From positions 1 through 48,520 of the forward strand of contig JAFLCE010000023.1 in the NCBI GenBank assembly GCA_017303655.1: DNA of 48,520 nucleotides. Direction: 5' to 3'. The position numbers and the translations under genes are program-made. Below the pieces are notes generated by a model. That model was not told the DNA's origin. It saw nothing but the letters and a program-made list of their open reading frames with translations, and did no database searches. Shown here piece after piece: positions 20,759 through 45,366 of this stretch (within the stretch, counting starts at the first letter, position 1; every line of letters begins with the position of its first letter). The stretch comes from Anaerolineae bacterium (GTDB taxonomy: Bacteria; Chloroflexota; Anaerolineae; Anaerolineales; Villigracilaceae).

Positions 20759-23029
20759 TTACGGGTTGATGGGCTCGGTTGTGATGTCGATCGACTTTAA
20801 GAATTGCAGTAATGCCGCCTGACTTGCAGGGTCGTCTAACAAGCCGGTCACGCCGCCTGCTTCGCGATGGGTCTGGTTTTCCAGCACACATTCGAGGGTG
20901 GGGCAGGAGCCGTCATGGAAGTAAGGCGGGAAGGCAAAGATGCTCAAAAGTGAAGGCGGGTTGAAACCCAATTGCCCAAGCGCCTGCGCATTGTTGGCAT
21001 TCTTTTCGATGGCTTTTGTCGGGTCGAAGGTGCCCACAAGTTGTAGGAAGCGCGAGAGCTGACCCACAGGCGGTTCGGGTGGTGTGCCCACTGAAATTGT
21101 TTCAGGGAAGGGCGAAACCCGTGCGTAATCCACCTGAGGCGTAGACCACTTCGCGCCGCCATGACATGCTTGGCAATTCGCTTGAGTAAAGATCTGGCGT
21201 CCCTGTGCGATCTGTTGACCGGTTTCACTGTTGGGGTCTGTGCCGCGCAGAGGCGATACTGGCGAAGGCACACGGAACTGAGTCCAGGCGACGATGGCAT
21301 CCCAAGCGGGGAAGCCGCCAACGTGCAATTGTTCTCGGGCTGCATTGGGTGGGTCAAAGGCTTTCACGTTCGGGTCAGGGTCGGTGGTGCCTGCCAACAC
21401 GATCAAGCCAGGTCCGCCGGAAACACCGCGAATGTTCAATTCGAAGTCTTCCAATTCGTCGAAGACACCCGAGTAATTCAAGATGCGCTGATTGCCAGTT
21501 TGGTTTTGCGGACTGAAAGTTCCATTCAATGGAATGCTCTTGCGCGGACCGGAAGCAAACGCCCAGACTACACCATCGCTCAAACCATCGGGGTGACAAC
21601 TCGAGCAAGCCTGCCAGCCTTCGTTGGAAAGCCGTTCGCTGACACCTTCGTCAAACTCGCCGCGCGATGAATGGAACAACTCATTCCCGGCGAGGAATTT
21701 GGCGGCATCAGAGCCCGCAGCGGGCAGATCCGCCGACTGGACGCGAGTCAGTTCCACTTCGGGGGAGGCGCTTAAGTCCACTACTGAAACATCTTTCGAG
21801 ATGAAGTTATATACATAAGCGCGCGTATCCGCGTTGTTGATCACAATCCCGCGCGGGTTTTTATGCACCTCAATCGTCAAAACACGAGTCGTGTCGCCAT
21901 CAGCAGGAACGTTCACAACTGTTGGCACGCCGCTATCATCAATGGTAACTTTTACCAATACGTCACTTGCAGACGAAACCACATAGCCTTCATTGGAAGC
22001 ATGTTCGAATGCGATCGCCCAAGGGTTGGCAACGAAGAGTTTCGGCGTGAAGGTTTGCACTTTGACAGCGGCATGCAAGTTGATCGTGCCATTGGCAAGT
22101 TCTGATTTTGCAGCGACATCGAAGACGGAAAGGAATGCCTGCGTATCGACATTGAACTTAACCGGTCCTTCAGGAGAAGCCGCTACGTTCGGAAGATAGC
22201 CGCGTCCGTTCTTGAGCACGATGGATTGCATCTGATTCGGATACGCAAAGGTCGGGTCTTTATCCGTCCCGCCAAATGCGGTTCGATCTGCGGCGAAGCC
22301 TGTATCGTGCGCTGCGAGCGTGATCACGCCTTGAATTTGGGCATCATCGGTCGTAGAGATGACAAAGACTTTGCCTTCGCTGCCCTGATCCAAACCCGGT
22401 CCGCCTGAAGCGGTGGGTTGTGAAAGGAACTGGGTCACGTAAACAAATTGCTGACCCGTTCCGCCATTGTTATTGGTGATCGCTACGCCACGTGGTTGTA
22501 CGCCGGGGATATTGATCGTGCCGACTACTGAATTTGTAGCGGTATCAATAATGGAGACGGTGTTAGATGCCGAATTTGCCACATATGCCCGCGCTGCATC
22601 GGGTGTGAGTGCAATGCCATAAGGCTCTGCTCCAACGGGAATATCCGCCACTTTGGTTTGTGAAGCCAGGTCCACTACCGAGACGGTGCCGCTGACCTGA
22701 TTGGTCACATAGGCGAACGCCTTATTGGGGGTGATGACGACCGAGCGCGGTTCTTCACCCACCTGGATCTCTGCCAATTTAGCATTGGCATCTCCCGCAA
22801 CATTGATCAGCGAGATGGTGCCGTTCAAGGTGTTTGTGACCACCACGAGTGCATCATCGTCACTGATGGCGATGGGGCTGGAGTAGCTCGAATTTTTAGC
22901 GATGGTTGCAGTAGTTTCAGGGGACGTAACGGCTTCCGTCTCCGCCTGAGGTCCGCCGCAGGAGCTCATAAAAACAAGCAGCAGGGTAATAACGACTCGA
23001 AATAACAGATGATTGTGTTTCGATGGCAT
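20759..23029 (-). CDS. YVTN beta-propeller / di-heme cytochrome c lipoprotein
   Basis: The ATG at 23029 has GGAGAGA before it and opens a lipoprotein signal ending FMSSCGGP (lipid Cys about residue 24); the longer frame is rejected. The 756-residue chain has YVTN-type propeller repeats (for example NKAFAYVTNQVSGTVSVVDL, DAARAYVANSASNTVSIIDT) over about 50-440. Next comes a cytochrome c module with two heme sites, CSSCH (475-479) and CQACH (619-623), each followed by a domain of the cytochrome-c-peroxidase/MauG type, ending near TCPTLECVLENQTHREAG and FLKSID. It would sit outside the membrane and pass electrons from or to an unknown partner. Similar YVTN-cytochrome fusions have been linked to metal, surface or polymer redox work, but no partner is visible. 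It heads an operon with the propeller lipoprotein. Confidence 0.9.
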   Translation of the reverse strand: MPSKHNHLLFRVVITLLLVFMSSCGGPQAETEAVTSPETTATIAKNSSYSSPIAISDDDALVVVTNTLNGTISLINVAGDANAKLAEIQVGEEPRSVVITPNKAFAYVTNQVSGTVSVVDLASQTKVADIPVGAEPYGIALTPDAARAYVANSASNTVSIIDTATNSVVGTINIPGVQPRGVAITNNNGGTGQQFVYVTQFLSQPTASGGPGLDQGSEGKVFVISTTDDAQIQGVITLAAHDTGFAADRTAFGGTDKDPTFAYPNQMQSIVLKNGRGYLPNVAASPEGPVKFNVDTQAFLSVFDVAAKSELANGTINLHAAVKVQTFTPKLFVANPWAIAFEHASNEGYVVSSASDVLVKVTIDDSGVPTVVNVPADGDTTRVLTIEVHKNPRGIVINNADTRAYVYNFISKDVSVVDLSASPEVELTRVQSADLPAAGSDAAKFLAGNELFHSSRGEFDEGVSERLSNEGWQACSSCHPDGLSDGVVWAFASGPRKSIPLNGTFSPQNQTGNQRILNYSGVFDELEDFELNIRGVSGGPGLIVLAGTTDPDPNVKAFDPPNAAREQLHVGGFPAWDAIVAWTQFRVPSPVSPLRGTDPNSETGQQIAQGRQIFTQANCQACHGGAKWSTPQVDYARVSPFPETISVGTPPEPPVGQLSRFLQLVGTFDPTKAIEKNANNAQALGQLGFNPPSLLSIFAFPPYFHDGSCPTLECVLENQTHREAGGVTGLLDDPASQAALLQFLKSIDITTEPINP

Positions 23030-23194
23030 ATCTTCTCTCCTTCTAATAAAAAGTTTTATGCAGCTATATTTGGACTGCATACCAATAAAACGAATGAAAG
23101 CAATATATTCATCATTCGTAGTTGTGGATCCTCTTTATCATAGAAGAAAGTGGCTTCAAATCAAACCATCGTGAGGCATCAATCAAAAAGAAAA

Positions 23195-25820: not shown

Positions 25821-26210
25821 CTATTTTTTTTGTTCAGGCGCTGGCACGAACGCTTCAACCCGTGCCCACAACTCGCGAATGTTAATCGGCTTGGACATAT
25901 AAACATCACAACCAGCCGAAAGAGCTTTTTCGGCATCGCCTTTCAAGGCGTTGGCAGTCACCGCAATGATCGGCACATACGCCAGGGCGGTTTTGGAACT
26001 AGAGCGCAACTTGCGAGCGACTTCATATCCGTCAATATCCGGCAGGTTGATGTCTAGCAAGACCAGATCAACCTCGTTTTCCTCTGCCAAAGAGACTCCA
26101 CTAATCCCATTAAAGGCTTCCAGCAAAACGTATCCGCGTGCTTCCAGGGCACGTTTGACCAGCATCATGTTATCTGGATTATCTTCGATATAAAGAATGG
26201 TATTGCCCAT
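25821..26210 (-). CDS. Single-domain response regulator (receiver only)
   Basis: The 129-residue receiver has acidic residues E9-D10, phospho-acceptor D53 in LVLLDINLPDIDG, and K about 108 in YMSKPINIREL; it belongs to the CheY/DivK-type group seen downstream of hybrid kinases. The start is ATG 26210, preceded by AGGAG, 9 nt after the stop of the synthase-receiver fusion, so they are co-translated. With D473 of the fusion and the receivers of the 778-residue kinase, it offers a fourth phosphate acceptor in one operon. Confidence 0.94.
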   Translation of the reverse strand: MGNTILYIEDNPDNMMLVKRALEARGYVLLEAFNGISGVSLAEENEVDLVLLDINLPDIDGYEVARKLRSSSKTALAYVPIIAVTANALKGDAEKALSAGCDVYMSKPINIRELWARVEAFVPAPEQKK

Positions 26211-26219
26211 AAATTCTCC

Positions 26220-27875
26220 TCACTCCTTGCTTTTCTCGTCTATTTTATCTTCAATTACGTTAATGACCTGGTCTACGAACTTGCGAGTTGGCAGTGAGCC
26301 TTTTTGATATAACGCCTCAATATGACCGTTGAGCCGTTTTCTTTCATCCGTTGTAATATCTTTTGCGCTGACGACGATCACGGGGATGTCTTTGGTACGT
26401 GGGTCTAATTTCAATTCTTCCACCAGCCCAAAGCCATCAATGCCTGGCATGGTCAAATCACTCACAATCAGGTCGGGTAGTTTTTGGCGTGCAATCGAGA
26501 GCCCTTCCCAGCCGTCTTTGGCGTGATACATGCGGTAGTTCTTTTTGTTTTCCAATAATCGGCGAATGAGATGTGCATCATCTGCATTGTCATCCACCAA
26601 TAATACGGTGGTCGTCTTTTCGTCAAGGTTTTCGAGCGCGGCTTGCAAGCCTTCACGCGGGGCGGGGGACTGATCTTTGCTTAAGTGTACGTCCACTGCC
26701 CATTGATCGCCGAGCACATGTTTTTCGACTGGGAAGGTATGCCCAGTGCAATTGATGACCACCAGTTCTTCCTTGCCGATGATACCTTGTTTGGATAGTT
26801 TTTCAAAACCGGCAAAGGCAACTGCGGTGGCGGGTTCCACTGCCATGCCTTCGCTTTTGGCGAGGGTGCGCATGGCAGAGTAAGCTTCGAGATCGGTGAC
26901 TGATTCCATCACCCCGCCATGTCGCTGGGTGAGATTCCATAAGTAGGTATACGACTTGCCTGGGTCACCGGTGGAGAGAATAATGATGCGCGTATCGGGG
27001 ATGACGGGTTCGGCGGTGTCTTTCCCGGCTTTGAAGGCGCGGACCATGGGCGCGCAACCTTCCGATTGAATGATTGCCAGTTTCGGTATTTTGCTGATCA
27101 GACCCATCTCGAACATTTCTTTGAAACCTTGATACACGCCCAGTGGTCCCATCCCTCCGCTAACGGCTTGGAAGTACCAATCAGGCGCGCGCCAGCCAAG
27201 TTGTTCAACGATTTCGTAGGCGATGGTCTTCATGGATTCGCGGGCGGGCACCGAGGTGGCGCCTCGGTCGAGCAGCAGGTTTTTCCGCTGGGCGAATTGA
27301 GCAGCGATCTGTTTGGTCTGATCGTAGTTGCCGCTAACGCGGATTACTTCGGCTCCAAAGAGGGCGGCTTCGCGTAATTTTTCTTGCGGCACCAGGCTGG
27401 TCATAAAGACCCAAAGCTTGATCCCGGCGCGGGCGCAAGCGGCGGCATAAGCGACTGCTGCATTGCCAGTGGAGGCGATGACCGCTTCACGGATCCCATT
27501 CTCGTTCATGGCTGCCACTGCTACGGCGGCTTGGCGGTCTTTGAAGGAAGAGGTTGGGCCGTAGCGTTCATCTTTGATGAAAACAGTATCATGCCCGAGG
27601 TCGGGTGCGAAGCGATTTGAATGCCGCAGAGGAGTTCCACCCGCAGGGTATAGATCAAGTGCGGATGGATTCTCCAGCGGCAGGACATCCTGAAATCTCC
27701 AAAGGTTGGAGGGACGATTGGGAATGCCGCGCAGGATCTCGCGTTTGAAGGCTGTGTAATCGTAATTCGCTTCGAGCCACTGCGACTGACAGGCATTGCA
27801 AACAGCGGGCTCGAATGGAATGTAGGCTTGTTGGTTGCCGCATACTGCGCATTTCAGATGGATGGGTTTTGCCAT
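26220..27875 (-). CDS. Threonine-synthase-like PLP enzyme fused to a receiver domain
   Basis: Residues 1-400 form a fold-type II PLP enzyme of the threonine-synthase class. A zinc-ribbon start has CAVC (9-12) and CNAC (26-29), the substrate lip GGTPLRHS (79-86), the PLP lysine K112 in TSSFKDRQ, the phosphate loop STGNAAVA (135-142), and later SGGMGPLG and the serine/threonine pocket TGHTFP (377-382). Residues 420-548 form a receiver domain with D428-D429, phospho-acceptor D473 in VSDLTMPGIDG, and a lysine (K525). A receiver on a PLP enzyme is exceptional: it suggests that phosphorylation controls an amino-acid-synthesis reaction (phosphohomoserine to threonine) or a related elimination. No homoserine kinase is nearby. 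The gene is 4 nt after the giant kinase and 9 nt before a lone receiver. The exact reaction is unproven; a cysteate-synthase-like activity is another option. Confidence 0.93.
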   Translation of the reverse strand: MAKPIHLKCAVCGNQQAYIPFEPAVCNACQSQWLEANYDYTAFKREILRGIPNRPSNLWRFQDVLPLENPSALDLYPAGGTPLRHSNRFAPDLGHDTVFIKDERYGPTSSFKDRQAAVAVAAMNENGIREAVIASTGNAAVAYAAACARAGIKLWVFMTSLVPQEKLREAALFGAEVIRVSGNYDQTKQIAAQFAQRKNLLLDRGATSVPARESMKTIAYEIVEQLGWRAPDWYFQAVSGGMGPLGVYQGFKEMFEMGLISKIPKLAIIQSEGCAPMVRAFKAGKDTAEPVIPDTRIIILSTGDPGKSYTYLWNLTQRHGGVMESVTDLEAYSAMRTLAKSEGMAVEPATAVAFAGFEKLSKQGIIGKEELVVINCTGHTFPVEKHVLGDQWAVDVHLSKDQSPAPREGLQAALENLDEKTTTVLLVDDNADDAHLIRRLLENKKNYRMYHAKDGWEGLSIARQKLPDLIVSDLTMPGIDGFGLVEELKLDPRTKDIPVIVVSAKDITTDERKRLNGHIEALYQKGSLPTRKFVDQVINVIEDKIDEKSKE

Positions 27876-27879
27876 GCGG

Positions 27880-30800
27880 TTATACCTTTTCGATGGCTAC
27901 GGTTTCTGAAACTTTGGCTTCGAGTGGCAGGCGCACGTAGAAGCTGGCGCCTTCGCCTTCAATACCGGAGCTTTCGCCCCATAAGCGTCCACCGTGCATT
28001 TCGATCAGACGGCGGCTGATGGGCAGACCCAAACCTGTACCACCTGCTTTGCGAGTGGTGGAGGTATCCACCTGTGTAAATTCCTGGAAGACGCTTTCCA
28101 AATGAGCTGGTGGAATACCAATACCAGTGTCTTTTACGCAGAGCAGAACGTTGTCTTTTTCGCGAGTAGCGCGGACGGATACGGAGCCCTTGTCGGTGAA
28201 TTTGATCGAGTTGTTGACGAGGTTGATGAGCACCTGGCGTAGGCGGGTACGGTCGACCGTGATCTCCGCTTCTTTATCTGATTCGGGATCGATGTAAAGG
28301 GCAATGTTCTTTTCATTGGCGAGTGACGACGTAATGCGGATTACGTCTTCCATGACTTCGTTCATGTTGCAGGTTTCAATGTTGAGGTTCATTCTGCCGG
28401 ATTCGATCTTTGCCATGTCGAGCACATCGTTGATGAGGTGCAACAAGTGTTGACCGTTCTTTTGAATGAGGCGCAGGTCGTTATCCATATAATCGGTCAG
28501 GTCGCCGTCGAGTCCTTCGAGCATCACATCGGTGAAGCCGAGGATGGAGTTAAGAGGAGTACGCAACTCATGCGACATATTGGCGAGGAAGGATGATTTG
28601 AGCCTGTCCAACTCGCGCAACTGGGTTACGACGGATGCCTGTTCGACATACAAGCGGGCGTTTTGAAGAGCAACTGCTACTTGAGCGGCAAGCGTTGTAT
28701 AAATGTCACCGTCTTCGCCTGTAAAAGCGCCTATTTTCTCCGACTGAATGTCGAACACGCCAAGGACTTTCTCGCCGACCAACAATGGAACTGCCATTTC
28801 GGACTGGGTGTTTGGCAGTAATGAATTGGGCAGGAAGCCTTCTTCTTTGTTAACATCATTGATGATCACCGCGCGTCTTTCTCTTGCCGCGCGTGCCACC
28901 AGAGATCGTTCGGCACCCAGGTCGATGGTAATACCGGTCTCCAACATTTTCTGACCCACTTCACCGGCACCTGCCGCGAGCGTCAATGCATTGTCCGTCG
29001 GATTGTTTAGGTAGATGTGGGCATGATACAGACCAAAGCGCTCTTTCGTAATGTTTACCACGGTCTTCAAGAGTTCGTCTGGGTCCAACACGGTGGCTGT
29101 GGTTGTACTGACCGCTGCTACCGTAGAGAGGTCTGCCGCACGATGTTGAGTCTCTTCGAACAATTGAACGTTCTCAATGGCACTGGCTAATTGTTTGGCA
29201 AGAGTTTCGATCAGTGTAATGTCGTTGGTATCAAATTTTCGTTTGATGTCATTGGTGTCGATGGAGAATACGCCGATGACCTTATTGCGCGAGAACATGG
29301 GTGTGACCAATACACTTTGAATGTTTCTCTGCTTCATGATCTCGTGGATCGGCTTGAGAATCAAATCTTTTTGTGCATCTGCAACCAAAACTGTCTTGCC
29401 AGACTTGATTGAGGAATCCGTTGCCGGATTGCTCGAAATAGGCATGGCTCTTCCTACCAGCTTGGGCATGTTGGCATCTGCATAACTTTCTGTAGTGAGG
29501 GTCAGCATCTCACCTTTTTCGTCCAATAAGAGAACGCCTGCACTGTATGCATTCATCAAGGTGCGGAATTCGTCTGTGGCGGTTTGCAAGATGTACTGCC
29601 TGTCTAGGGAAGAGTTGGCGACTTCCATCACGCGATTAAGAACGGTGAGCTGTTCAGCACGGGCGGCAATGATCGCTTCGGCATTTTTACGTTCGGTGAT
29701 ATCTTGATTAGCACCATACCAGCGCAGAATTTTTCTGTTTTCATCACGTTCAACGTTGATATTTACAGCAATGTGACCAATACTTCCATCTGGGAAGATG
29801 ATACGATGTTCCAATTGTTGTTTGAAATGAAGTTCTGTTGTGGTCATGGCTTTGCCAATTTCTATTCCGACCAATTCAGCATCATCGGGATGGACAAAGC
29901 GCTCAGCATACTCGGCTGAAGATATTTGATAACTGCCTACTTCTTCAACATTTGTGCGGAACACAGCGTAGAAGTTATCATTGAAGGTGAAAATGTCCTT
30001 TTCTGGATCATATTCCCAGTTGCCAAGGCGAGCAATTTCAAGCGCTTCAGCAAGGCGGGCTTCGTTCGTGCGGATGCTGTCTTCCGCCAGCTTGCGCTCG
30101 GTGATATCTTGATTGGCGCCAAAATAACGTGTAATTTTTCCGTTCTCATCCCGCTCCACGTTAATGCTGACTGAAATATACCCAATGCTGCCATCCGAAT
30201 AGATGATGCGATGTTCCAGTGAGGTTCTATACGAGCGTCCTTTGGAATTAAGAGCTTTTTCAATTTCGACACCCACAATGGGCAAATCATCCGGGTGGAC
30301 GAACCTCTGAGCATATTGTGCAGATGAGATTTGATATCCGCCAACCTCTTCAACAGAGGTTTTGAAGATAGAGTAGAAATGATCATTGAAGAAGAAAATG
30401 TCTTTTTCTACATCATATTCCCAGTTGCCGAGGCGAGCAATTTCAAGCGCTTCAGCAAGGCGGGCTTCGTTCGTACGGAGAATTTGTTCCGCTTCTTTAC
30501 GTTCTGAAATATCGGTATGGGAACCTGCCATACGATAAGGAGCTCCATTTTCATGGCGCATGGCTTTGCCTCTGGCGAGTATCCAACGATAAGAACCGTT
30601 TTTGTGGCGGAAGCGGAACTCAACATCGTATTCCTCTGCCTTGCCGCTTAAATAATCATTGACGGCTGCCAGGACACGGTCATGGTCTTCAGGGTGTAAA
30701 AGCGCTTCGAAATCGGCAAAGCCATTCATCAATTCGGTCTCTTCGTAGCCGACCATGGCTTTCCAGCGTGGTGAGAAGTAGACACTATTTGTTTCGATGT

Positions 30801-32928
30801 TCCAGTCCCACAAGCCGTCGTTGGAGCCTTCCACCGCCAGCTCGTATTGTTCCTGGCTTTTTTGTACTTCTACACGGCTGACTTCGGTTTCTTCCAACAG
30901 GCGTAAACTTTCGAGATGGCTGCTCAATTGGAGTGCGACGGCTGAAAGAATATCGGTTGTTTCATCTCCCAGTGTTACCTCTGCGTTAACTGCAAGCTCG
31001 CCAATGACTTCATCCCGCACTTCGATCGGCAGGGAGTAGGTGCGGTTTATGGCATTATTCTCAGCTAGGGATTGGACTTTGTTTTCACGATACACAAACC
31101 CGTGAGACGTTTCTTTTTTAGTGTTTAGGTAGGTTTCCCAACCCTCACGGGTCAGGCGTCTGGTTGCATCTTCCGCGTCGTGACGATATTTCTCAGATTG
31201 GGCAAGCAACCTCAAGTTTTCGATGTGACGCGAGAGCTGCAAAGAGGTATCGTGGATAATGGTAGCTTCTGCAGGAGACCATTTGCGTTCAACGGAATCG
31301 GCGATGTATATTTTCCCGATCTCAGCACCAGCAACGTTGATCGCCGCATGCAGTGTGTTTTCATGAAGAGTCTCTCTTTCCACATCTATGTAGGGGAGTA
31401 CTTCATTTTGGTTGTACACATACCCGATCTTTTCGCCTCGATCCAGCGCATTGAGGAAGGTAGACCAGCCTGAGAGCGATTGCAATTTTGATTGCTCTTC
31501 TACTTCCCTGCGTGCCTGGTTCACCTGCTCGAACAAGTAAGAGTTTTGAATGGCAACGGCAAGCTGCCCGGCAAGGGCTTCGAAGGCGGTTAGGTTTTCT
31601 TCATTAAGTGCGTTCGGTTGATCGCTTTGCATATCCAATACGCCCACGACACGTTCACCTATCATTAATGGAATGGACATTTCAGAACGAGTGCGAGGCA
31701 GCATGGAATTCGGCAGGAAATTCGGGTTATGCTGTGTATCCTGCACGATAACCGTTTGTTTTTCAAGAGCGGCACGCCCATTCAGCGATTCCATAGTGAG
31801 CGTAAGTTGATGCCCGCGTTGAAGCAATTGTTTGCCAACATCCCCAGTTCCCGCACGTAGTAAGAGGAAACGCCCGGCACGATCCACAAGGTACACTTGG
31901 GTATAGTACAGGTCGAAACGTTGCCGGATCGATTCAACCGCCTCGGATAAGAGTTGTGAGAGATTTTCCACACGAGCCGTGATGGTACGACCGATTTCCG
32001 ATGCCAGCTCAAGGTCGTGAGTACGCTCTGCAACACGTTGTTCAAGATTATCTCTCGAATCCTCAAGTTGTTTGTTGACCTGCCGCAGATTTTCAAGACG
32101 TAAACGTTCATTGGTCTTACGGAAGTTCGAAAGCGCGATCAACACCAAACCAATCGTGGTGATAATTCCGCTTTGCGCGCCAATATTGTCTGGTGTAATG
32201 ATATTAAAGGTGGCAAGAGTCAGGAACAAAGCACCGATATTTAACCCGGTCAATAAAAAGACTGCCCATGACGAAAGGAAGGTACTTGCAACGACCAAGC
32301 TCAACGGTACATAAATCAGCAACAGAGCACTAATGTCTGCCTGAATGCCTTCACTCGCCATGGAGACGTATGCCAGCGAACTGAACGCCATCGAAAAAAC
32401 AAAGATGCCTGCCCGATACCATTTGGTTCGGGTCAACCCATATGCAACTAGGGTAGGGATCAAAGAGAATCCGATCGGACCCAGGAAAGCATTCAATAAA
32501 CCAGCCCGAGGAATACGAGCCAGCCCGCCGATCACTTCAAGCAAAGCGATGATGATCAGGAATGAAGCCGCCAGGCGTGCTGAATTTCGCTCTCCAGCGT
32601 CTGTGATCTCAACATTGGCTTGGGTCAAGGCGTCCCAACCGCGTGAGACCCAACTCACCTTTCCAACCGCAGAGGTTCTTGGGATAAGTGAAATGGTCGG
32701 TTCCACAACTTTTACCGAGTGAAATCGTTCTGGACCTTTTGAGCCAGACTCTTTTTCAGCTTTCGCCGCACGTTCAGCTTGTTCTCTAAGTTGTGCTTCC
32801 AGAGCTTGAATGCGTGATTTCATAGCTTCTACTTCACGCAGATTGGCGGGTGTGGGCAAGTCCTGCCCGTTAAACAGGTTGTTGATCCGTCCCTGCATAC
32901 GGTCATCTGATGGGTTTTGATCAGCCAT
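27880..32928 (-). CDS. Giant membrane histidine kinase: TM-GAF-(GAF-like)-PAS3-GAF2-HisKA-HATPase
   Basis: The 1682-residue protein begins with a coiled coil (about 25-70), then five or six membrane helices (about 125-270). A coiled coil [19 protein letters not shown] leads to a GAF domain (about 315-475), then two GAF-like or degenerate repeats with [13 protein letters not shown] / [12 protein letters not shown] (about 490-740), a PAS domain (about 745-870), two near-identical PAS domains (about 875-1145), two more GAF domains (about 1150-1420), and the kinase core. The core has H1453 in [23 protein letters not shown] and DTGIGI. It has no receiver of its own; the fusion enzyme and lone receiver just downstream are the likely acceptors. 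The start at 32928 is preceded by AGGAG. Large size and many sensor modules mark it as an integrator of several signals. Confidence 0.93.
29695..30505 (-). repeat. Tandem 405-bp duplication coding two PAS domains
   Basis: Two units of 405 bp (135 codons) lie head to tail in the giant kinase gene. The phrases [20 protein letters not shown] and DITERK recur at exactly this distance, and at DNA level the stretch from about 30015 reappears at 30420 with only a few substitutions. The divergence is highest in the ligand-facing middle of the PAS fold. Confidence 0.85.
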
Positions 32929-32938
32929 TGGAACTCTC

Positions 32939-34261
32939 CTAATTCGCCTTGTTCAGCGCTATTTCTTGCAGGTCAATGATCGTACGTGCATCACGAGCCC
33001 CCAGCGCCTGCCCAAGTTCGCGGGTTGCTACCTGTAAAGCCTGTTCAACACTGGCAGTGTTTTGAATTTTTCTGCCGATCTCATTGATCAATGATTCACG
33101 TTCGGCTTGTTGTTGGGTTTCAGAATAGATCTGCGCATTTCGTACAGCCACAGCTACTTGAAAAGCAATCGATTGAAGCAGGGAGCCATCTTCTTCGCGC
33201 AACCCATCTTTTACGTTTTGTTGAACATCCAACACGCCCAAAACCTTTTCGCCCAATGTAATTGGAACTGCGATCTCAGATTTTGTATCCGGCAAAAGCG
33301 GATTCGGCAACCAGTCGGGGTCTTCGGTGGTATCACTCACACGGATCAATGACCCGCTTTCGGCTGCCAGCCCAACCAAGCCTTTCCCCACCGGAATTTT
33401 ATGTCCGCGCGCCAGCATGATCTTCCCGGCATCACCGGTGCCGCCCATCATGATCAAGTCTCTTCCCGACTCATCCATTAAGTAAATATGGGCATGGTAA
33501 TAATTGAAGGAGCTTTTTACCTGCTCCACCACTTCGGTTACCAATTGTTGTAAGTTAAGAATGGTCGAAATACGGCGGCTGACCTCAGCAGAAGTGGAGA
33601 GCGCCCGGGTGCGGTCTGCCACGCGTTGCTCCAGTAACGAACCGGATTCAGCCAATGCCTGGTTCGCGCTGCGTAATTTCAAGAAAGATTCATCCAACTG
33701 TCTTAGATATTGAGTTAACAATGCGGTTGAAAGAAAGGCTGTAAAAATAAAAGTAAATAACCCAATAGTTTCTGTGCCGCCTGCGGCGTTAACGCTTTGT
33801 GGTAATAATCCATTGTTATCAAGCACCAAAAAGACAAACGCTGTAAATACGGAGACTACCGCAGTAATAATCGCATATCGTCTACCGAGCAACAAGCCGA
33901 ATACCATTACCGAAAGTACGTAGTTGAATAAGCTATATGAACTGGTGCCGCCTGAAATATATACATTATAGGTTTGGCTTAACCATAACAAAATGCCAAA
34001 GCTAAGCGTGGCAGCCCGGATCAGTTTTGCTCGCATCAGCACTTGAGCAATGATTAAGGCGATAAAAAGTGGGACGATTTGGGTAGATGCTTGTTTTAAC
34101 GTGTTTCCGTAGTCTGTACTTGCGGCGAAACTTGCCCCGACCGTTATCATGGCAACAACAAAGTACGCAATTGTGATGAAGTTCAACAAATAAGCATTTC
34201 GGTTTTGTTCTTCATCAGCAAAAGTTGGCAGGGCAAAAAAATTTTTCATCGAATTAAACAT
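32939..34261 (-). CDS. Membrane GAF sensor protein without kinase domain
   Basis: The 440-residue protein has five or six membrane helices (about 20-190), a coiled coil with [20 protein letters not shown], and one GAF domain (about 240-400) of the same type as that of the giant kinase ([42 protein letters not shown]). A last helix (about 405-440) completes it; there is no HisKA, HATPase, GGDEF or methyl-accepting domain. The ATG at 34261 has a perfect AAGGAG, and overlaps the stop of the upstream gene by 8 nt; the longer frame from 34285 lacks a site. It probably partners the kinase as a co-sensor, through coiled coil or GAF pairing. Confidence 0.88.
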
Positions 34262-36110
34262 CTCGCTCTCCTTGTTGCTTGCCATTGCCAGGCTTCAATT
34301 TGACTACTGCACTGGTTCCCAGGGCACGGCCTACCTCACGGACTGCCACTTTCATGGCGTTTTCCATCGTAGTTTCCTGCTGGATCTTCTGACTAATGGA
34401 GGTGATCAACTCTTCACGCTCTGCTCTCTTTTGCGCTTGTGCCAGCGAACGTGCATTTTGCAAGGCAATCGCAGTTTGATTCGCAATCGCTGTAAGGTAT
34501 TCCACATCTTCCGGGTGAATATCGCCAACGACATCATCTTGCATATCCAACACCCCAAGTAGTTTTTCACCTAACAAGATCGGAATGGCGATCTCCGCTT
34601 TTGTATCGGGTAGTAATGGGTTGGGCAGCCATTCAGGGTCTTGTGACGTATCCGACACAAAAACTGCAGCTTTGGTGCGTGCCACGCGCCCGACCAAGCC
34701 TTTCTCAAGGGAGAGGCTGTGTTTTTTATCCAACAGGGCTTTGCCACCTGTGCCAGTGGCGCCTGCCAATACAAGCGTCTGACCGCTGGCATCTAATAAA
34801 TAGATCTGCCCATGATAATAGTCATACGCCTTTTGTACCTGCTCCACCACTTCTGTCACTAGTTGTCTTTCATCCAAAATGTTTGAAAGGCGGCGGCTCA
34901 CTTCAGTGGCAGTGGCAAGTGCTTTCGTGCGGTCTGTAACGCGTTGTTCCAGTGTAAGGACCATGTCTCGTAAACGAGTGGTCATCAGGTTGAAACTAGT
35001 TGCTAGCACGCCAATTTCATCACCTCGGTTTACCTTAACTTCAACATCCAGACTTCCATGAGAAATATTATCTGCGGCTTTCGCAAGTTCGGTAATAGGT
35101 GTGGAAATTTGACGTGTGATGATAAAAGCAATGCCGCTGGCAACGATAATGGTAAGGAATGTAAAAATGAGGTTGGCTCGAAATAGAGCGTTGGATGACT
35201 CTAAGGCTTCAGTTTCGTCCTGTTCTGCCAGAACGGTGGCTTTTAATTCTGGAATCCAATGATATACACCAAGGACTGATGTGTTTCGGTAGTCATTGTA
35301 GGTTGCTCTGCCATTGGACTGTGTCTCAATAGCTTGGGCTGCCCCATCTGTTTGGATGTACGTTTTTCCGAGGATGATTTCTTGAAAGCGTAAATTGGTC
35401 AGCGCAGCAAAGTTTGCGTTAACCAGATACGTTTCACCAGTTTCTCCTAACCCTGCCCGCTCACTCATGATGCTATTCAAGGTCGAGAGATTTACGCGCC
35501 CGGCAAGAACGCCGATAATTTTTCCGTTTTGTCCTACCAGGGGTTGTGAAATGATAATAGAATAATTTGAAAAAGCAGGTTCATAGGTTGGCGGGTTGAT
35601 AAAGGATCCTTTGATCCCTTCTGTGAAGAAGTTCTGATTGCTGAAAATCTTGTTTTCCTGATTCTCTATTGTAGAGAGCAGAACAACCCCATTGGTATTC
35701 ATAATGAATATCTCGGTAAAGTATCCAGAAAGCCCTGTGTAGCGCTCCAAGTCGAACCTTAATTTCGACTTATCCAGAAATGCGTCGTTATTTTCTTCCT
35801 CTTCTTGATTAATGACTGCGGTCACTAGTCGAATGGATTGCTGATCTGCAAATACCAGTTCAAGGCTGGTTTGCAAAGTATCCAACCAGATTCGAATCTG
35901 ATTTTCCTTTAAGGTAGCGACAGATTCCAATTGGTCGAAGGCAGCATTCGTTAGACCTTGTGAACTGATATATGTTGAGATCGTTGTCGTGATCAACGCT
36001 GGGATAAGCACCAGTAATATGCTCGTTAAAAGCAGGCGGGTCTGCAGCGACATGGATTGCAATGCCGATGTAGTCTTGCCAGCCAGGGTTGGAGAGGAAT
36101 TTTTGCTCAT
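34254..36110 (-). CDS. dCACHE-HAMP-GAF membrane sensor without kinase domain
   Basis: The 618-residue protein has an N-terminal membrane helix (about 25-48), an extracytoplasmic double-CACHE domain (about 50-310, with FDQLESVATLKENQIRIWLD and GLSGYFTEIFIMNTNGVVLLST typical of CACHE), a second helix (about 318-338), a HAMP domain (about 340-392), a coiled coil, and a GAF domain (about 420-575) almost identical in pattern to that of the next gene. No output domain is present. CACHE domains bind amino acids and other small molecules outside the cell. The start at 36110 has GGAG. It is 8 nt overlapped by the next sensor, so the two are made together and may form mixed assemblies with the kinase. 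Confidence 0.9.
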   Translation of the reverse strand: MSKNSSPTLAGKTTSALQSMSLQTRLLLTSILLVLIPALITTTISTYISSQGLTNAAFDQLESVATLKENQIRIWLDTLQTSLELVFADQQSIRLVTAVINQEEEENNDAFLDKSKLRFDLERYTGLSGYFTEIFIMNTNGVVLLSTIENQENKIFSNQNFFTEGIKGSFINPPTYEPAFSNYSIIISQPLVGQNGKIIGVLAGRVNLSTLNSIMSERAGLGETGETYLVNANFAALTNLRFQEIILGKTYIQTDGAAQAIETQSNGRATYNDYRNTSVLGVYHWIPELKATVLAEQDETEALESSNALFRANLIFTFLTIIVASGIAFIITRQISTPITELAKAADNISHGSLDVEVKVNRGDEIGVLATSFNLMTTRLRDMVLTLEQRVTDRTKALATATEVSRRLSNILDERQLVTEVVEQVQKAYDYYHGQIYLLDASGQTLVLAGATGTGGKALLDKKHSLSLEKGLVGRVARTKAAVFVSDTSQDPEWLPNPLLPDTKAEIAIPILLGEKLLGVLDMQDDVVGDIHPEDVEYLTAIANQTAIALQNARSLAQAQKRAEREELITSISQKIQQETTMENAMKVAVREVGRALGTSAVVKLKPGNGKQQGERDV

Positions 36111-36239: not shown

Positions 36240-37229
36240 TTACGGTGTTGTAAATTCGTTCGTGTATACAGTGGATACATCGATGGGGGCGGAGATCAGC
36301 TCAAATTCAAGCAGAATGTCCTGGGTGTTTTCCCAAATACTTTCATTCATCGAGCCAAGCTGACCGTCACCATTGTTGATGAACGGGACCTGTGCCTGCA
36401 TGACCGCTTGCTGGTAGGCGAGATCAAGCGTTTCATCATATGTGGTGGCAAGCTGGGCAACGGCATCTGTATTTTCAATGGCATATTGATAGCCTTTGGT
36501 CGTCGCTTGAATAAAACGGCGAATCAGTTCGGGGTTGTTTTCTTTGAATTCTCCGTTCACGAAAATGGCATTGATATAGACGTCATATCCGTAATCTTTA
36601 TAGTAGATAAAATTCAAGTCGTCGCCATCCTGGCTGGACATCACTTGCTGATCGGTGGCGAACATGCCGCTCATGGCATCCATGTTACCGGCTTTGATTT
36701 CATTGGCGCCCTGGAAATCTTCGATCAATGCATAATTCATCGAAGAACGATCAAGACCGGTGCGGCTCATCAAAGCAAGGAAGGGAAGGTCATTGAAATT
36801 GCTGAGGTCAAGTGAATAGACGCCCACCGTTTTACCGGCAAGGTCTTCAGGGCTTGTGATGTTGTCGGACTTTAATGATGTGATGGCAAGTGGATTGTCC
36901 TTGAAGATCGTAGCCACTGCTACAAAGTCCTGTCCATTTGCACGGGCTGTGATGAGGCTATCGCCGCTTCCAATGCCAAACTGGGCATTTCCGCTGCTGA
37001 CTTCATCCAGTGGATTGGTTTCGGGTCCACCCGCATTCAGAACCACTTCGATGTTGGCATCTTTATAATAGCCTTGATCAATAGCAGCATAAAAACCGGC
37101 ATATTCCACACCGTGGAACCAGCTTAACTGCACGGTCACTTTGTCTGCTGGTCCAGCGGCAGTTCCACATGCTCCGAGTAACAGGGCAGCAATGACAAAA
37201 ACAAGAAAGAAACGAGTATTAGTTTTCAT
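36240..37229 (-). CDS. NMT1/ThiY-like substrate-binding lipoprotein
   Basis: The ATG at 37229 has AAGGA and opens a signal peptide with lipobox LLLGACGT; the longer frame from 37289 is rejected. The 329-residue product is a type II periplasmic-binding-protein fold of the NMT1/THI5 family: VTVQLSWFHGVEYAGFYAAIDQGYY at the front, FGIGSGDSLITARANG, DNITSPEDLAGKTVGV, and later a hinge with IFVNGEFKENNPELIRRF. Family members bind pyrimidine precursors of thiamine, riboflavin (RibY-type in Chloroflexota) or related compounds. No permease or ATPase gene accompanies it; instead it sits between a hybrid kinase (23 nt upstream gap) and the CACHE sensor. So it more likely presents a ligand to a sensor. 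Confidence 0.9.
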   Translation of the reverse strand: MKTNTRFFLVFVIAALLLGACGTAAGPADKVTVQLSWFHGVEYAGFYAAIDQGYYKDANIEVVLNAGGPETNPLDEVSSGNAQFGIGSGDSLITARANGQDFVAVATIFKDNPLAITSLKSDNITSPEDLAGKTVGVYSLDLSNFNDLPFLALMSRTGLDRSSMNYALIEDFQGANEIKAGNMDAMSGMFATDQQVMSSQDGDDLNFIYYKDYGYDVYINAIFVNGEFKENNPELIRRFIQATTKGYQYAIENTDAVAQLATTYDETLDLAYQQAVMQAQVPFINNGDGQLGSMNESIWENTQDILLEFELISAPIDVSTVYTNEFTTP

Positions 37230-37252
37230 AGATTTTCCTTTTTTGAATGAAC

Positions 37253-39589
37253 TTAATTTGACAATAATGGCAAGGTAATACTGAAGCAAGACCCCTTGCC
37301 GGTTTCACTTTCCACATTTACATAACCATTGTGTTCTGAAATGATCGACTTCACAATGGCAAGACCCAGCCCATTGCCTTCCACTTCGCTGGCTTTGCCG
37401 CTGCGGACCCGATAAAAACGATTGAAAATAAATGGCAGGTCCGCAGCAGGGATGCCATAACCGTTGTCTTCGATCTCAATGGTGATCTGACCGGGTTTCA
37501 TGCTGGTTTTGACGTTGATCTTGCCGCCTTGCGGTGTGTATTTGATGGCATTGCTGATCAGGTTTCGGAACACCTGGCGCAATTGAAGCGGATCTCCATT
37601 CACACGCACCGGCTCAGGAGAGTTTTGGGTATGCAGGGTTTGCAATTTCCCGTTTGCCTGCGGCACGAATTCATGTTCCATTTCTGCCAATAAAGTATTG
37701 ATGTTGATCGGTTCATATTTTTGTGAAGCTTCCAGGTCCAATTGCACGAGTGACATCATGTTCTGCACCAGTTCCCCCATGGTCTTGGAGGCATGTTGAA
37801 TGCGTTCAACAAATTCCTTCTGATTTTCGTTTAATGGACCTGCCTGGCTGAGCAGTTGGGTGTATCCGCCAATGGACGTGAGCGGATTCTTAAGGTCATG
37901 CGACGCCGTCGCAATGAACTCATTCTTGATCCGGTCCAGGTCTTTGAAGCGGCTGACATCGTGCAGAATGGCCAGCGTGCCGCCATCTTCAATTGGAGCA
38001 ATAAATGCCGTAAACGTACGCTGGTCGGGCCATACGATCTCGCCCGATTTCGACATGCCTGCAGCACGCGCATCGGAAATCATTCGGATAAAAGCTTCAT
38101 AGCCGGAATTTGCAGGCAGCGGCTGGTTTAATTTTGCAGGGAAATCGGTAAAGAGTTGTTCCCCGGCAGGATTAAGTAAATTAAGTTTGGTTTCATCGTC
38201 GAAAAGCAAGATCGCTTCAGAGGCGTGCCGTAGAATGGCAGCCAGTTTTTTCTTTTCTTGCATCACCACGGCATAGAGATTGGCATTCTCAATGGCGATC
38301 GCCGCCTGGCTTGCAATGGCTTGCAATAGCAATAAATGATCAGCCGTGAAATAAGCCTCTGATTCGTGGGTGAGTAAGATCAAGCCTAAAAGAGAATGCC
38401 TGCCAAAGATGGGTACTACCAGGGCAGAGCGGATGGTTGTAGTTGCATGGACCTGCCACAAGGGATCGTTAATCGCATCTTCGATGACAATACCTTGGTG
38501 AGTGGTTTGCACATGCTGTATCAACTTAAGCGGAGGTGTAAGGTCTTCGGTGATCACAGAGGAGCTCAAAGACACTTGATACTTCTCGCGCACTTCCTTC
38601 TCAGCTTCATCCAAGATATACATATTGCCTTGAGCGGCTCCCAGCGTTTCAACGGTGCGCTTGAGCAACACATCAGCAAGGTCTTTAATATCCAAGCGGG
38701 CGCTCAACTGCTTACCGATCTCTGGCAGAAGGTTCAGTTCACGGTTGCGGCGGCGTGTGGCGTCTTCGGCTTCTTTTACACGCAGCTTTGTACGGATGCG
38801 TGCCATCAGTTCATGGCGGTCGAAGGGCTTGGTCACATAATCATCTGCGCCAAGGTTTAAACCAGACTGCACGTCTGAAGGATCAAGGCGAGCGGCAGTC
38901 AGAATGATGACCGGGATATGGGCGACAGCCGGGTCTTCGCGGATTTCACGCAAGACTGTAAAGCCATCTTTATGGGGCATGTTCACGTCTAAGAGCACGA
39001 GGTCAGGCAGTTCATCGTGCACTTTGTTAAGCGCTTCCAACCCGTCGCGGGCGATCACCTGATCGTAGCCTTCATATTCAAGATAACGCGTTAATAAGGT
39101 GACGTTATCCATTACATCATCCGCCACGAGGATCTTGAATTTTCGTTTTGCCGCAATCTTCTTCCCCGTTGGGTGAGTGGAGAGTTTCATTTCTCCAATC
39201 GCAGTGGTGGCGATCTGACAGATCTTCTCAGGGCGAACCGGTTTGATGATGACTTCGTTTACCTTCAGGCGCTGCGCCGTCACCTTAAGACCAGGCACAT
39301 CGTATGCTGTGATCAAATAGGAATACGAAGGCTTGCCGCCTGGGTGGTTCTGCATTTTTTCGATCAATTCCAAACCGGTCATTTCCGGCATGATCATGTC
39401 AGTAAATAAAATATCCACCCCTTTGTCCTTCACCTTTTCGAGAGCATCTGAGCCGCTTACAGCCGAAACAACATCCACAGAAGGACCGATCTGAGCGAGG
39501 GCTCGCGCAAGGGTGGTTGCCGTATTGGGGTGGTCATCCACAACAAGGATCCGTACCATTTCCTGGGGTTGAGAGATTGGGGTATTCAT
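37253..39589 (-). CDS. Soluble hybrid kinase: REC-REC-GAF-PAS-HisKA-HATPase
   Basis: I start at ATG 39589 (MNTPISQPQ), giving 778 residues; the longer frame from 39727 adds a non-homologous stretch and would overlap the terminator. Two receiver domains lie first: D64 in ILFTDMIMPEMTG (about 10-130) and D201 in LVLLDVNMPHKDG (about 150-270). A GAF domain (about 300-445), a PAS domain (about 450-550), the HisKA helix with FIATASHDLKNPLTS (H565), and an HATPase domain with NLISNAIKYTPQGG, DNGYGI and GNGLGLAIVK follow. Receivers at the N-terminus followed by kinase is an inverted order relative to classical hybrids, suggesting that phosphorylation input controls the kinase. It is the first gene of the signalling operon. 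Confidence 0.93.
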   Translation of the reverse strand: MNTPISQPQEMVRILVVDDHPNTATTLARALAQIGPSVDVVSAVSGSDALEKVKDKGVDILFTDMIMPEMTGLELIEKMQNHPGGKPSYSYLITAYDVPGLKVTAQRLKVNEVIIKPVRPEKICQIATTAIGEMKLSTHPTGKKIAAKRKFKILVADDVMDNVTLLTRYLEYEGYDQVIARDGLEALNKVHDELPDLVLLDVNMPHKDGFTVLREIREDPAVAHIPVIILTAARLDPSDVQSGLNLGADDYVTKPFDRHELMARIRTKLRVKEAEDATRRRNRELNLLPEIGKQLSARLDIKDLADVLLKRTVETLGAAQGNMYILDEAEKEVREKYQVSLSSSVITEDLTPPLKLIQHVQTTHQGIVIEDAINDPLWQVHATTTIRSALVVPIFGRHSLLGLILLTHESEAYFTADHLLLLQAIASQAAIAIENANLYAVVMQEKKKLAAILRHASEAILLFDDETKLNLLNPAGEQLFTDFPAKLNQPLPANSGYEAFIRMISDARAAGMSKSGEIVWPDQRTFTAFIAPIEDGGTLAILHDVSRFKDLDRIKNEFIATASHDLKNPLTSIGGYTQLLSQAGPLNENQKEFVERIQHASKTMGELVQNMMSLVQLDLEASQKYEPININTLLAEMEHEFVPQANGKLQTLHTQNSPEPVRVNGDPLQLRQVFRNLISNAIKYTPQGGKINVKTSMKPGQITIEIEDNGYGIPAADLPFIFNRFYRVRSGKASEVEGNGLGLAIVKSIISEHNGYVNVESETGKGSCFSITLPLLSN

Positions 39590-43186: not shown

Positions 43187-44716
43187 TTATTTGGCGTATT
43201 CGGTGGCTCTCGTTTCGCGGATGACCGTCACGCGGATCTGACCGGGATATTGCATGGTCTCTTCGATCTTCTTGGCAATGTCGCGCGCAAGGCGGGTGGA
43301 GCCAAGATCATCAATCGTATCTGGCTTGACGAGGATGCGGACTTCACGTCCGGCTTGAATGGCGAAGGCTTGTTGCACGCCATCAAAGGACATGGACATT
43401 TCTTCGAGTGAGCGGATGCGCTTGATGTAGGCTTCGAGGTCTTCACGGCGGGCACCAGGGCGGGCGCCAGAGATGGCATCGGCTGCTTCAGCGATGACGG
43501 CTTCGACGGTTTCTTGATCCACTTCATGGTGGTGGGCGGCGATGGCGTTCACGACTACTGCATTGACGCCGTATCGTTTACAGAATTCGGCACCAAGACC
43601 AGCATGTGTGCCTTCCTGATTGTGGTCCATGGCTTTGCCGACATCGTGCAGGAAGCCGCCCATTTTGGCGAGCTCTACATTTGCGCCGATTTCAGCAGCG
43701 AGGATGCCTGCAAGCTTGGAAACTTCCACCGCGTGGGCGAGCTGATTCTGACCATAGGACGTACGGAACTTGAGGCGACCCATCATGCGCAGAATTTCAG
43801 GGTGTATGCCAGAGACATTGGCATCGTATGCAGCTTGTTCGCCTGCTTCATTAATGATCTTATCAACGGCGCGAGTTTCGTCTTCGATAACTTTTTCAAT
43901 GTGTGCGGGGTGAATGCGACCATCGAGGATGAGCTTAGAGAGGGCACGGCGGGCAATTTCACGGCGGACTGAGTCGAAGCAGGAGACAGTAACGGAATCG
44001 GGCGTATCGTCCACGATTACATCCACACCGGCAGCTTGTTCGAAGGCTTTGATGTTGCGTCCGTTACGACCAACGATACGTCCCTTCATCTCTTCGCTGG
44101 GCAGGGTTACCACGGCACGAGTGACTTCGGCGACATGCTCAGAGGCGACGCGCTGAATGGCGTCGGCAATGAGTTTGCGAGCGCGCTTCTCGCCTTCTTC
44201 ACGGGCTTCGGCTTCGATCTGGCGGATGATGCGCGCCATATCGCCGCGGGCTTCTTTTTCTACGGCGGCGAAGAGATCTTTGCGGGCTTCGTCAGGCGTC
44301 ATCTGCGCGATCTCTTCGAGTTTTTTCATTTGATCTTCGAACAGTTTCTCAGCATCGTTATGGCGCTTGTCGATCTGCGACTGGCGTTTGTTGAGATTTT
44401 GTTCGCGTTGTTCGATCTTGTCGTAGCGGCTGTCTACTTCTGAGCGGCGTTTTTCAAGGCGCTCGGTATCGCGGTTCAGTTCGATGCGGCGTTCTTTTAG
44501 TTCGCTTTCAGCGGCTTGAATGATCTTGGTGGCGTTATCTTGTGCGCCTTTGACGATCATATTCGCCTGGGTTTGAGCGGCTTTGACAATATCATCGGAG
44601 CGGTCTTGTTTGGCTTTGGTGGCGCGGTCTACCTGGTAACGGTGGAAGAAGTACCCCGCCGCGGCGCCAATGACCAGCGCCAGAACATCGATCAAAATAA
44701 TAATAATGGGGTTCAT
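43187..44716 (-). CDS. rny: Ribonuclease Y
   Basis: The 509-residue protein is RNase Y, the membrane-anchored endoribonuclease that starts messenger decay in many bacteria without RNase E. It has one N-terminal membrane helix (about 3-24), a long coiled coil (about 30-185), a KH domain with GRIVGRNGRNIKAFE (about 210), and an HD domain with FLHDVGKAMDH and AHHHEVD (about 355-400), which bind the catalytic metals. The KH loop reads G-R-N-G-R-N where many orthologues have G-R-E-G-R-N. It overlaps recX by 4 nt and is translated with it. Confidence 0.97.
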   Translation of the reverse strand: MNPIIIILIDVLALVIGAAAGYFFHRYQVDRATKAKQDRSDDIVKAAQTQANMIVKGAQDNATKIIQAAESELKERRIELNRDTERLEKRRSEVDSRYDKIEQREQNLNKRQSQIDKRHNDAEKLFEDQMKKLEEIAQMTPDEARKDLFAAVEKEARGDMARIIRQIEAEAREEGEKRARKLIADAIQRVASEHVAEVTRAVVTLPSEEMKGRIVGRNGRNIKAFEQAAGVDVIVDDTPDSVTVSCFDSVRREIARRALSKLILDGRIHPAHIEKVIEDETRAVDKIINEAGEQAAYDANVSGIHPEILRMMGRLKFRTSYGQNQLAHAVEVSKLAGILAAEIGANVELAKMGGFLHDVGKAMDHNQEGTHAGLGAEFCKRYGVNAVVVNAIAAHHHEVDQETVEAVIAEAADAISGARPGARREDLEAYIKRIRSLEEMSMSFDGVQQAFAIQAGREVRILVKPDTIDDLGSTRLARDIAKKIEETMQYPGQIRVTVIRETRATEYAK

Positions 44717-45366
44717 GTTAGTTCCTCATCTTCGTAGTGTGTATCTTCCGTGTGCGTCTCATTCCAAATGCGGGTTACAGTAGACGTAACAACGGAATAG
44801 GGGAAGCCGCGCCTTGCAAGGTGATCGGAGAGTTTCTTACGAAACTCGCTCCACTCCAGACCTAGGAATCTGGGTGCCCGTTTTCGGGCTGTTTCGTACG
44901 CCAGGGCTTCTTCGTCCACGTTGGAAACAGCCTGCTTAACTGTTTCTTCGTCGAGCCCTTTTTGACGGAGTTCCATTGTCAATGCGCGGCGGCTGCGGGG
45001 GCGGAATGTACTGCGATTTTCTACCCACGCCTGAGCAAATTCATTGTCATTGGCGAGCCTGTTGTCGCGAAGGCGGGTCAGCGTATGTTCGATGGCGTCT
45101 TCGGGATATTCGTGCTTTTTCAGGTTCTGCCGTATTTCCTTCTCTGAACGTGCGCGATAACTTAGGAAGAGTAAAGCCTGTTGCATTGCCTTCTCTTGCG
45201 CATCTTCATTCTGTAATTGAACGATCTTTTCATCGCTGAGCACGTCTCCAACTTTGAGCCAGGCGGCTGTGATGCGTGCCAGCCCGAAGGCGAATTCCCC
45301 GTCGAGGTGAAGGTTCACTCGATTGGGATTTTTCTTTTGCACTTCGAGAGCGGTTATCTTTTTCAT
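44713..45366 (-). CDS. recX: RecX, regulator of RecA
   Basis: The 217-residue protein has the RecX layout of three helical repeats: ALLFLSYRARSEKEIRQNLKKHEYPEDAIEHTLTRL (about 60-100), a second with FAQAWVENRSTFRPRSRRALTMELRQKG (about 108-140), and a third (about 160-200). The N-terminus ITALEVQKKNPNRVNLHLDGEFAFGL is the conserved leader. RecX binds and caps RecA filaments. It is the first gene of a two-gene operon with rny, an uncommon pairing that links DNA repair and RNA turnover by transcription only. The start has only a weak ribosome-binding site and lies 18 nt after a terminator, so expression depends on read-through. Confidence 0.95.
   Translation of the reverse strand: MKKITALEVQKKNPNRVNLHLDGEFAFGLARITAAWLKVGDVLSDEKIVQLQNEDAQEKAMQQALLFLSYRARSEKEIRQNLKKHEYPEDAIEHTLTRLRDNRLANDNEFAQAWVENRSTFRPRSRRALTMELRQKGLDEETVKQAVSNVDEEALAYETARKRAPRFLGLEWSEFRKKLSDHLARRGFPYSVVTSTVTRIWNETHTEDTHYEDEELT

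Follow-up and report, generated by a model that had tools for sequence, protein, structure and literature searches.

A conserved fusion of a fold-type-II PLP-enzyme domain and a receiver domain in sensor-kinase operons of Chloroflexota

A contig of 48,520 nucleotides (nt) from an Anaerolineae bacterium of the family Villigracilaceae (GenBank assembly GCA_017303655.1, contig JAFLCE010000023.1, positions 1 to 48,520; hereafter the window) carries a gene in which a fold-type-II domain of enzymes dependent on pyridoxal 5'-phosphate (PLP), the Pfam domain PALP, is joined in frame to the receiver domain of a response regulator. This PLP-REC fusion is real and conserved and is not a frameshift: it recurs in most genomes of the family and in part of the phylum, all 116 distinct members that were aligned keep both the PLP-binding and the phospho-acceptor sites, and a histidine kinase gene usually lies directly upstream. 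Its enzyme domain is probably not a threonine synthase, although this is the name that its fold suggests.

Extent and conservation of the fusion

The gene and its parts were placed as follows:

26220..27875, minus strand: PLP-REC fusion gene, one uninterrupted open reading frame (ORF) of 551 codons with zinc ribbon, PALP domain, linker and receiver
27789..27851, minus strand: zinc-ribbon cysteines C9, C12, C26 and C29, all four kept in 116 of 116 distinct members
26742..27644, minus strand: PALP domain, residues 78-378 (Pfam), with the PLP lysine K112 at 27540-27542
26616..26723, minus strand: interdomain linker, residues 385-420, with a helix predicted at 407-419 in the structure model
26253..26615, minus strand: receiver domain, residues 421-541, with the phospho-acceptor D473 at 26457-26459

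Pfam matched PALP over residues 78-378 (E 1.6e-71, 241.5 bits against a cut-off of 35) and Response_reg over residues 424-514 (E 1.5e-16, 61 bits against a cut-off of 30.2), and no other Pfam domain was found in the protein at E <= 0.001. An earlier note on this DNA had placed K112 in the context SFKDRQ, STGN at 135-138, the four cysteines and D473 exactly where the sequence has them, and had correctly described both domains as lying in one frame, 4 nt after a kinase gene and 9 nt before a lone receiver gene (spacing calculated from the coordinates). The artifact for which it had allowed, a stop near residues 400-420 betraying a frameshift or an assembly join, was not borne out, and the same fusion recurs across relatives.

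Among 100 genomes of the family (its own included), 83 held a match at E <= 1e-60, and in 82 of these at least one match or match pair extends to residue 536 or further; in the remaining genome (G067) the match runs up to the contig end, a short match elsewhere (G075:C67) likewise stops at a contig end, and two match pieces in G062:C154 lie inside a single open frame of 577 codons. At the level of the phylum, where three candidates were scored per genome, 42 of 400 genomes (again including its own) held a match at E <= 1e-90, and all 57 matches listed cover both PALP and receiver. Frameshift, gene joining and assembly error are ruled out by the single ORF, by these matches and by the 116 intact members. 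Elsewhere in the window's genome, on a different contig, lies another full-length copy, 49% identical to the window protein. By hand count, close full-length orthologues (group A, 76-89% identity besides the window itself) occur in 40 of the 100 family genomes, and a paralogue of 47-54% identity (group B) occurs in 81 of them, one being cut at a contig end and one lying in two pieces.

The record titles of 80 listed relatives, out of 485, name Chloroflexota groups (Anaerolineales, other Anaerolineae or Chloroflexi metagenome-assembled genomes (MAGs), Thermoflexales MAGs and Herpetosiphon isolates). In the Herpetosiphon isolates the fusion is ~63% identical to the window protein. One locus titled Herpetosiphon sp. 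(L145) has a PLP-REC protein 85% identical to that of the window, and it is probably a mislabelled MAG, because this value far exceeds that of the isolates. Among plasmid and phage records with a match, none (0 of 626 and 0 of 33, respectively) covers 80% of the query.

To describe conservation, 162 full-length loci (match starting before residue 20 and ending past residue 500, no stop) were reduced by duplicate removal to 116 distinct members (82 of group A, 5 Herpetosiphon-like and 29 of group B or deeper). This definition bars receiver-less members from the set, and the evidence on those comes from the family and phylum searches, from fusion-free genomes and from the tree described below. 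Furthermore, the 80 genome-contig loci come from a search with two peptide patterns (residues ~166-174 and ~374-382), where invariance is partly built in; neither pattern covers K112, residues 135-138, the cysteines or the receiver residues. In all 116 members the four cysteines, K112 and S135-T136-G137-N138 are intact, and G205, S239-G240-G241 and E347-P348-A349 are invariant. The receiver is equally constant, with D429, D473 and K525 in every member, S or T at 503 and D or E at 428 (the residue following K525 is Gly in 110 of 116 and Pro in none). The family has a pattern of its own, SGG(M/L/I)GP, D203-x-G205 and TGHT; D203, M or F at 215 and H379-T380 (the latter partly built in by the search) are found in the 116 members; Q115 is conserved across 46 rows, and the linker residues P406, G409, A413 and L414 are invariant in 13 members drawn from both groups. 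Both sites are still intact where identity to the window protein drops to 45-50%. Among 11 close group-A sequences, the ratio of nonsynonymous to synonymous substitution rates (dN/dS) was 0.03-0.10 for PALP, 0-0.12 for the linker and 0.01-0.05 for the receiver, values that represent computable pairs only, many pairs being saturated at synonymous sites. The PALP domain, the linker and the receiver are thus under purifying selection, and a decayed enzyme fused by chance is ruled out by the intact sites in 116 of 116 members together with the low dN/dS.

In a quick phylogenetic tree of 87 PALP domains, with long branches flagged, the 46 fused domains fell on one side of a single branch (SH-aLRT 100), and 33 single-domain rows and 8 operon-neighbor rows, including canonical ThrC and PRK08197-type sequences, remained outside; the single-domain rows represented 19 fusion-free genomes, operon neighbors, the window's genome and the solved protein 1uim. 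No receiver-less member of the fused group was seen, either among the PALP-only proteins of the 19 fusion-free genomes, which fall outside, or among the 57 listed phylum matches.

Relationship to threonine synthases

The closest known proteins are the PRK08197-type 'threonine synthase' (NF006050) and ThrC (TIGR00260), which share the fold, the PLP lysine and the TGN loop with the fusion (the PRK08197 type also the N-terminal zinc ribbon) and give the best sequence and structure matches; the best fold matches of the structure model, which was submitted to Foldseek and VIA-align as the whole chain with all domains together, were threonine synthases. However, the fusion has a receiver attached and its own residue pattern, and it scores below the curated cut-offs of both families: 250.2 bits against 303 for PRK08197 (261.1 for the group-B member of the genome) and 157.2 bits against 167.1 for ThrC (154.1 for the group-B member). 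Against cysteate synthase (TIGR03844; PDB 9k3c, named cysteate synthase or CapA2), a protein without a receiver, it reached 126.7 bits, where the cut-off is 324.9. The genome encodes three more proteins that do score above the ThrC cut-off (L005 with 282.4, L003 with 185.3 and L004 with 182.8 bits), so the fusion as the genome's only threonine synthase is ruled out.

In the Thermus threonine synthase we take T88, S155, R160 and N188 to be the contacts of the substrate phosphate. A literature source for this assignment was sought, an excerpt of PMC12172450 included, and none was found. The four positions are T, S, R and N in all seven canonical rows, including L005, and are changed throughout the 116 members to A or V, G, A/S/C/G and G. 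All 13 PRK08197-type rows share A at the first (139) and G at the last (240) of the four positions, so that only the middle two set the fusions apart: the PRK08197-type rows keep R160, and at the S155 position they and the 16 other rows with a single domain have T, never the G of the fusions. The two shared changes alone do not exclude the threonine-synthase reaction, for which reason we raised the probability of that alternative slightly, at a low level. Because the fusion lies below both cut-offs and its presumed phosphate-contact positions are changed, its chemistry is probably amino-acid chemistry on PLP other than the usual threonine-synthase reaction. The earlier note had called the gene a threonine-synthase-like enzyme joined to a receiver in a kinase operon; the conserved fusion, the intact receiver and the kinase gene run stood, whereas a threonine synthase with phosphohomoserine as substrate did not agree with the scores, with the changed positions or with the three other proteins that pass the ThrC cut-off.

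Gene neighborhoods of the two groups

In the window, the fusion gene belongs to a run of genes on the same strand:

25821..26210, minus strand: stand-alone receiver, 129 amino acids (Pfam), 9 nt downstream of the fusion gene
27880..32928, minus strand: histidine kinase, 1682 amino acids, with GAF, PAS, HisKA and HATPase_c (Pfam), 4 nt upstream of the fusion gene
32939..34285, minus strand: GAF protein of the same gene run (Pfam)
34254..36110, minus strand: sensor-like protein with dCache, HAMP and GAF domains, in the same run (Pfam)
36240..37289, minus strand: NMT1/THI5-like substrate-binding protein, in the upstream run between sensor-kinase genes (Pfam)

The order in group A is histidine kinase, PLP-REC, lone receiver and sometimes a separate PALP gene. 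Neighbors were counted in the 78 of 80 listed loci with a called PLP-REC gene (L138 and L143 were left out because the ORF picker lost the gene). Of 77 loci with a gene called upstream, 74 have the kinase immediately before the fusion, at a median gap of 2 nt, and of 76 with a gene called downstream, 62 have the lone receiver immediately after it. A separate PALP gene follows within four genes downstream in 32 of those 76 loci, coming after the lone receiver (e.g., L058:11365-12549), and the one such gene that was scored reached 577.5 bits against the PRK08197 cut-off of 303; all 13 PRK08197-type rows read SFKAR at the lysine, in place of SFKDR. On the window's contig the genome search listed no PALP match besides the fusion. 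GAF proteins are found upstream in many relatives. The NMT1 binding protein was considered as a constant partner and rejected, because just 5 of 78 loci have it among the six genes upstream. At some other loci a gene of 285-299 amino acids follows (of three tested, two were GNAT acetyltransferases and one had no Pfam match), and GNAT genes adjoin the PLP-REC operon in two group-A loci and in Herpetosiphon (L079:10445-11311, L112:10929-11783 and L155:1254-2117), in the latter just upstream of the kinase.

The order in group B is ParA, a kinase with two receivers, PLP-REC and an EamA transporter. The second operon of the window's genome (G000:C54:1-6632, L038) has a kinase with two C-terminal receivers, PLP-REC and an EamA-like transporter, and in relatives a ParA-like ATPase additionally precedes the kinase. 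Twenty group-B loci were examined, hand-chosen from ~81 genomes and with family names taken from one locus. A kinase was upstream in all 20 (adjacent in 19 and behind a small opposite ORF in one), the ParA-like ATPase preceded it in 16, and the EamA-family transporter was directly downstream in all 18 loci with a downstream gene. The kinase has two C-terminal receivers in 18 of the 20 loci (in L048 a wrong neighbor was picked and in L046 none were found), and the acceptor Asp is kept in both receivers in all 18. Among 14 further loci, 12 have a called PLP-REC gene and 10 of these a kinase; L190 and L201, where the ORF picker lost the gene, are omitted from these counts (the deeper member L201 has a PALP gene alongside the fusion). 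Descent of the fused receiver from those of the group-B kinase was considered and not retained: one of them is the genome's best-scoring receiver outside the two fusions, but the receiver tree, built on 120 columns, lacked the resolution to decide.

Two other regions of the window were noted: near the sensor operon, 20759-23080 encodes a protein in which YVTN-like repeats and a pair of CxxCH heme-binding motifs were identified by eye, and 43187-45366, beyond the sensor gene run on its upstream side, contains RNase Y-like and RecX genes (Pfam).

A proposed phosphorylation switch and its alternatives

The reading that we favor, at even odds, makes the fusion a response regulator that has as its output a fold-type-II PLP enzyme, of a specificity that we do not assign, switched by phosphorylation. 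According to this proposal, the neighboring histidine kinase, driven by its own GAF/PAS sensors and by the GAF/Cache proteins of the gene run, would phosphorylate D473, and the receiver would then act on the PLP domain through the conserved linker, probably by altering the closure of the active site or the arrangement of the dimer, so that the rate of an amino-acid reaction could rise or fall with no transcriptional step in between. Phosphate might be shared or buffered by the lone receiver in group A and by the paired receivers of the kinase in group B, and the substrate would be an amino acid, probably not phosphohomoserine. Phosphotransfer from the adjacent kinase, catalysis, the direction of control and the substrate are all read from sequence, and we infer the switch because the sites are intact, the fusion is constant and the gene order recurs. 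Other fold-type-II enzymes, e.g., threonine deaminase and cystathionine beta-synthase, have C-terminal regulatory domains, which counts in favor of the proposal. The Arabidopsis threonine synthase crystallized with S-adenosylmethionine (SAM; 2c2b) is presumably regulated by SAM binding and not by a receiver.

Several observations weigh against a switch. The receiver is C-terminal here, unlike in most response regulators, an intact lysine is no proof of catalysis, and the gene order would fit a sensor too. Residues 379-409 of the fusion model lie below 50 in the predicted local distance difference test (pLDDT), so that no contact between PALP and receiver can be read from it. Finally, the ORF picker called no kinase beside the fusion in L100, L111 and L151, and none beside PLP-REC in L197 and L198, which belong to a different family within the class; not every member is therefore linked to an adjacent kinase.

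In the chief alternative, the PALP domain may be a module that senses an amino acid (or PLP): a ligand forming an external aldimine with the PLP on K112 would alter phosphorylation or dephosphorylation of the receiver and thereby report the amino-acid status to the two-component network. Such a sensor is possible, if on the unlikely side. It would account for a PLP site that is intact while the substrate residues are changed and for scores below the threonine-synthase cut-offs, the lone receiver alongside in group A could carry its output, and the transporter gene that follows in group B is also in keeping with it. MocR/GabR regulators, which presumably have no receiver, offer a precedent in that a PLP-enzyme domain is placed inside a regulatory protein. 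That domain is aminotransferase-like, i.e., of another PLP fold, and is coupled to a DNA-binding domain (excerpts of PMC5320631, PMC5734734 and PMC6917764); the fusion, in which Pfam recognizes only PALP and Response_reg, lacks this combination of a GntR-type DNA-binding domain with an aminotransferase-like domain. A sensor might, however, need fewer constraints on its active site than are seen, with G205, S239-G240-G241 and E347-P348-A349 also invariant.

A regulated threonine synthase proper, making threonine from phosphohomoserine under the control of the kinase, is improbable. The closest solved sequences and folds are those of threonine synthases, a PALP gene (the one tested passing the PRK08197 cut-off) follows in 32 of 76 loci, and A at 139 and G at 240 are shared with the PRK08197 type; on the other hand, the fusion fails both curated cut-offs, the four presumed contacts kept in the canonical rows are changed in all members (including R160, kept in the PRK08197 type, and S155, with a G not seen in the PRK08197-type or the 16 other single-domain rows), and L005, L003 and L004 pass the ThrC cut-off. 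We also give little credence to a non-catalytic PLP subunit that would pair with the neighboring PRK08197-type enzyme and control it by its phosphorylation state: the score of the tested neighbor, the 32 loci with a PALP gene and the adjoining PALP gene of L201 would suit such a partner, but in 44 of 76 loci (some cut by contig ends) the next four genes include no called PALP gene, none is among the labelled neighbors of the 20 group-B loci, and invariance of K112 and of the PLP loops would be unnecessary.

The excerpt of a census of archaeal systems (PMC5847659) presents receivers attached to metabolic enzymes as a known trend in bacteria, and such enzymatic-output response regulators resemble the fusion in joining a receiver to a metabolic-type enzyme and in their narrow phyletic range; they differ in that this excerpt names four enzyme kinds on archaeal receivers, none of them PLP-dependent, besides others left unnamed. 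No fusion of a PLP enzyme with a receiver was found described in the titles and abstract openings of the openly licensed literature, outside which the main bacterial censuses (Galperin 2006, 2010) lie. Fusions of receivers with metabolic enzymes are a known arrangement, and one that appears to be little studied.

Going by fold, annotation may give proteins of the fusion group the name 'threonine synthase' while they do something else. The fusion has more than 100 intact relatives in two paralogue groups, both of its active sites are conserved, and some hosts (Herpetosiphon) are in culture, so that purified protein can be used to test whether a phospho-relay controls a PLP enzyme or, conversely, whether amino-acid sensing feeds a receiver. 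We tentatively suggest, as somewhat less than an even prospect, a new class of two-component proteins, PLP enzymes of new specificity gated by a kinase through phosphorylation, with a single origin in Chloroflexota and an early duplication into two operon types, and which makes, destroys or senses an amino-acid compound that in one operon type is handled by an EamA-family transporter; metabolism and signalling would then be combined in one polypeptide. The fusion, encoded next to a sensor kinase, suggests that in some environmental Chloroflexota signalling may control amino-acid chemistry directly.
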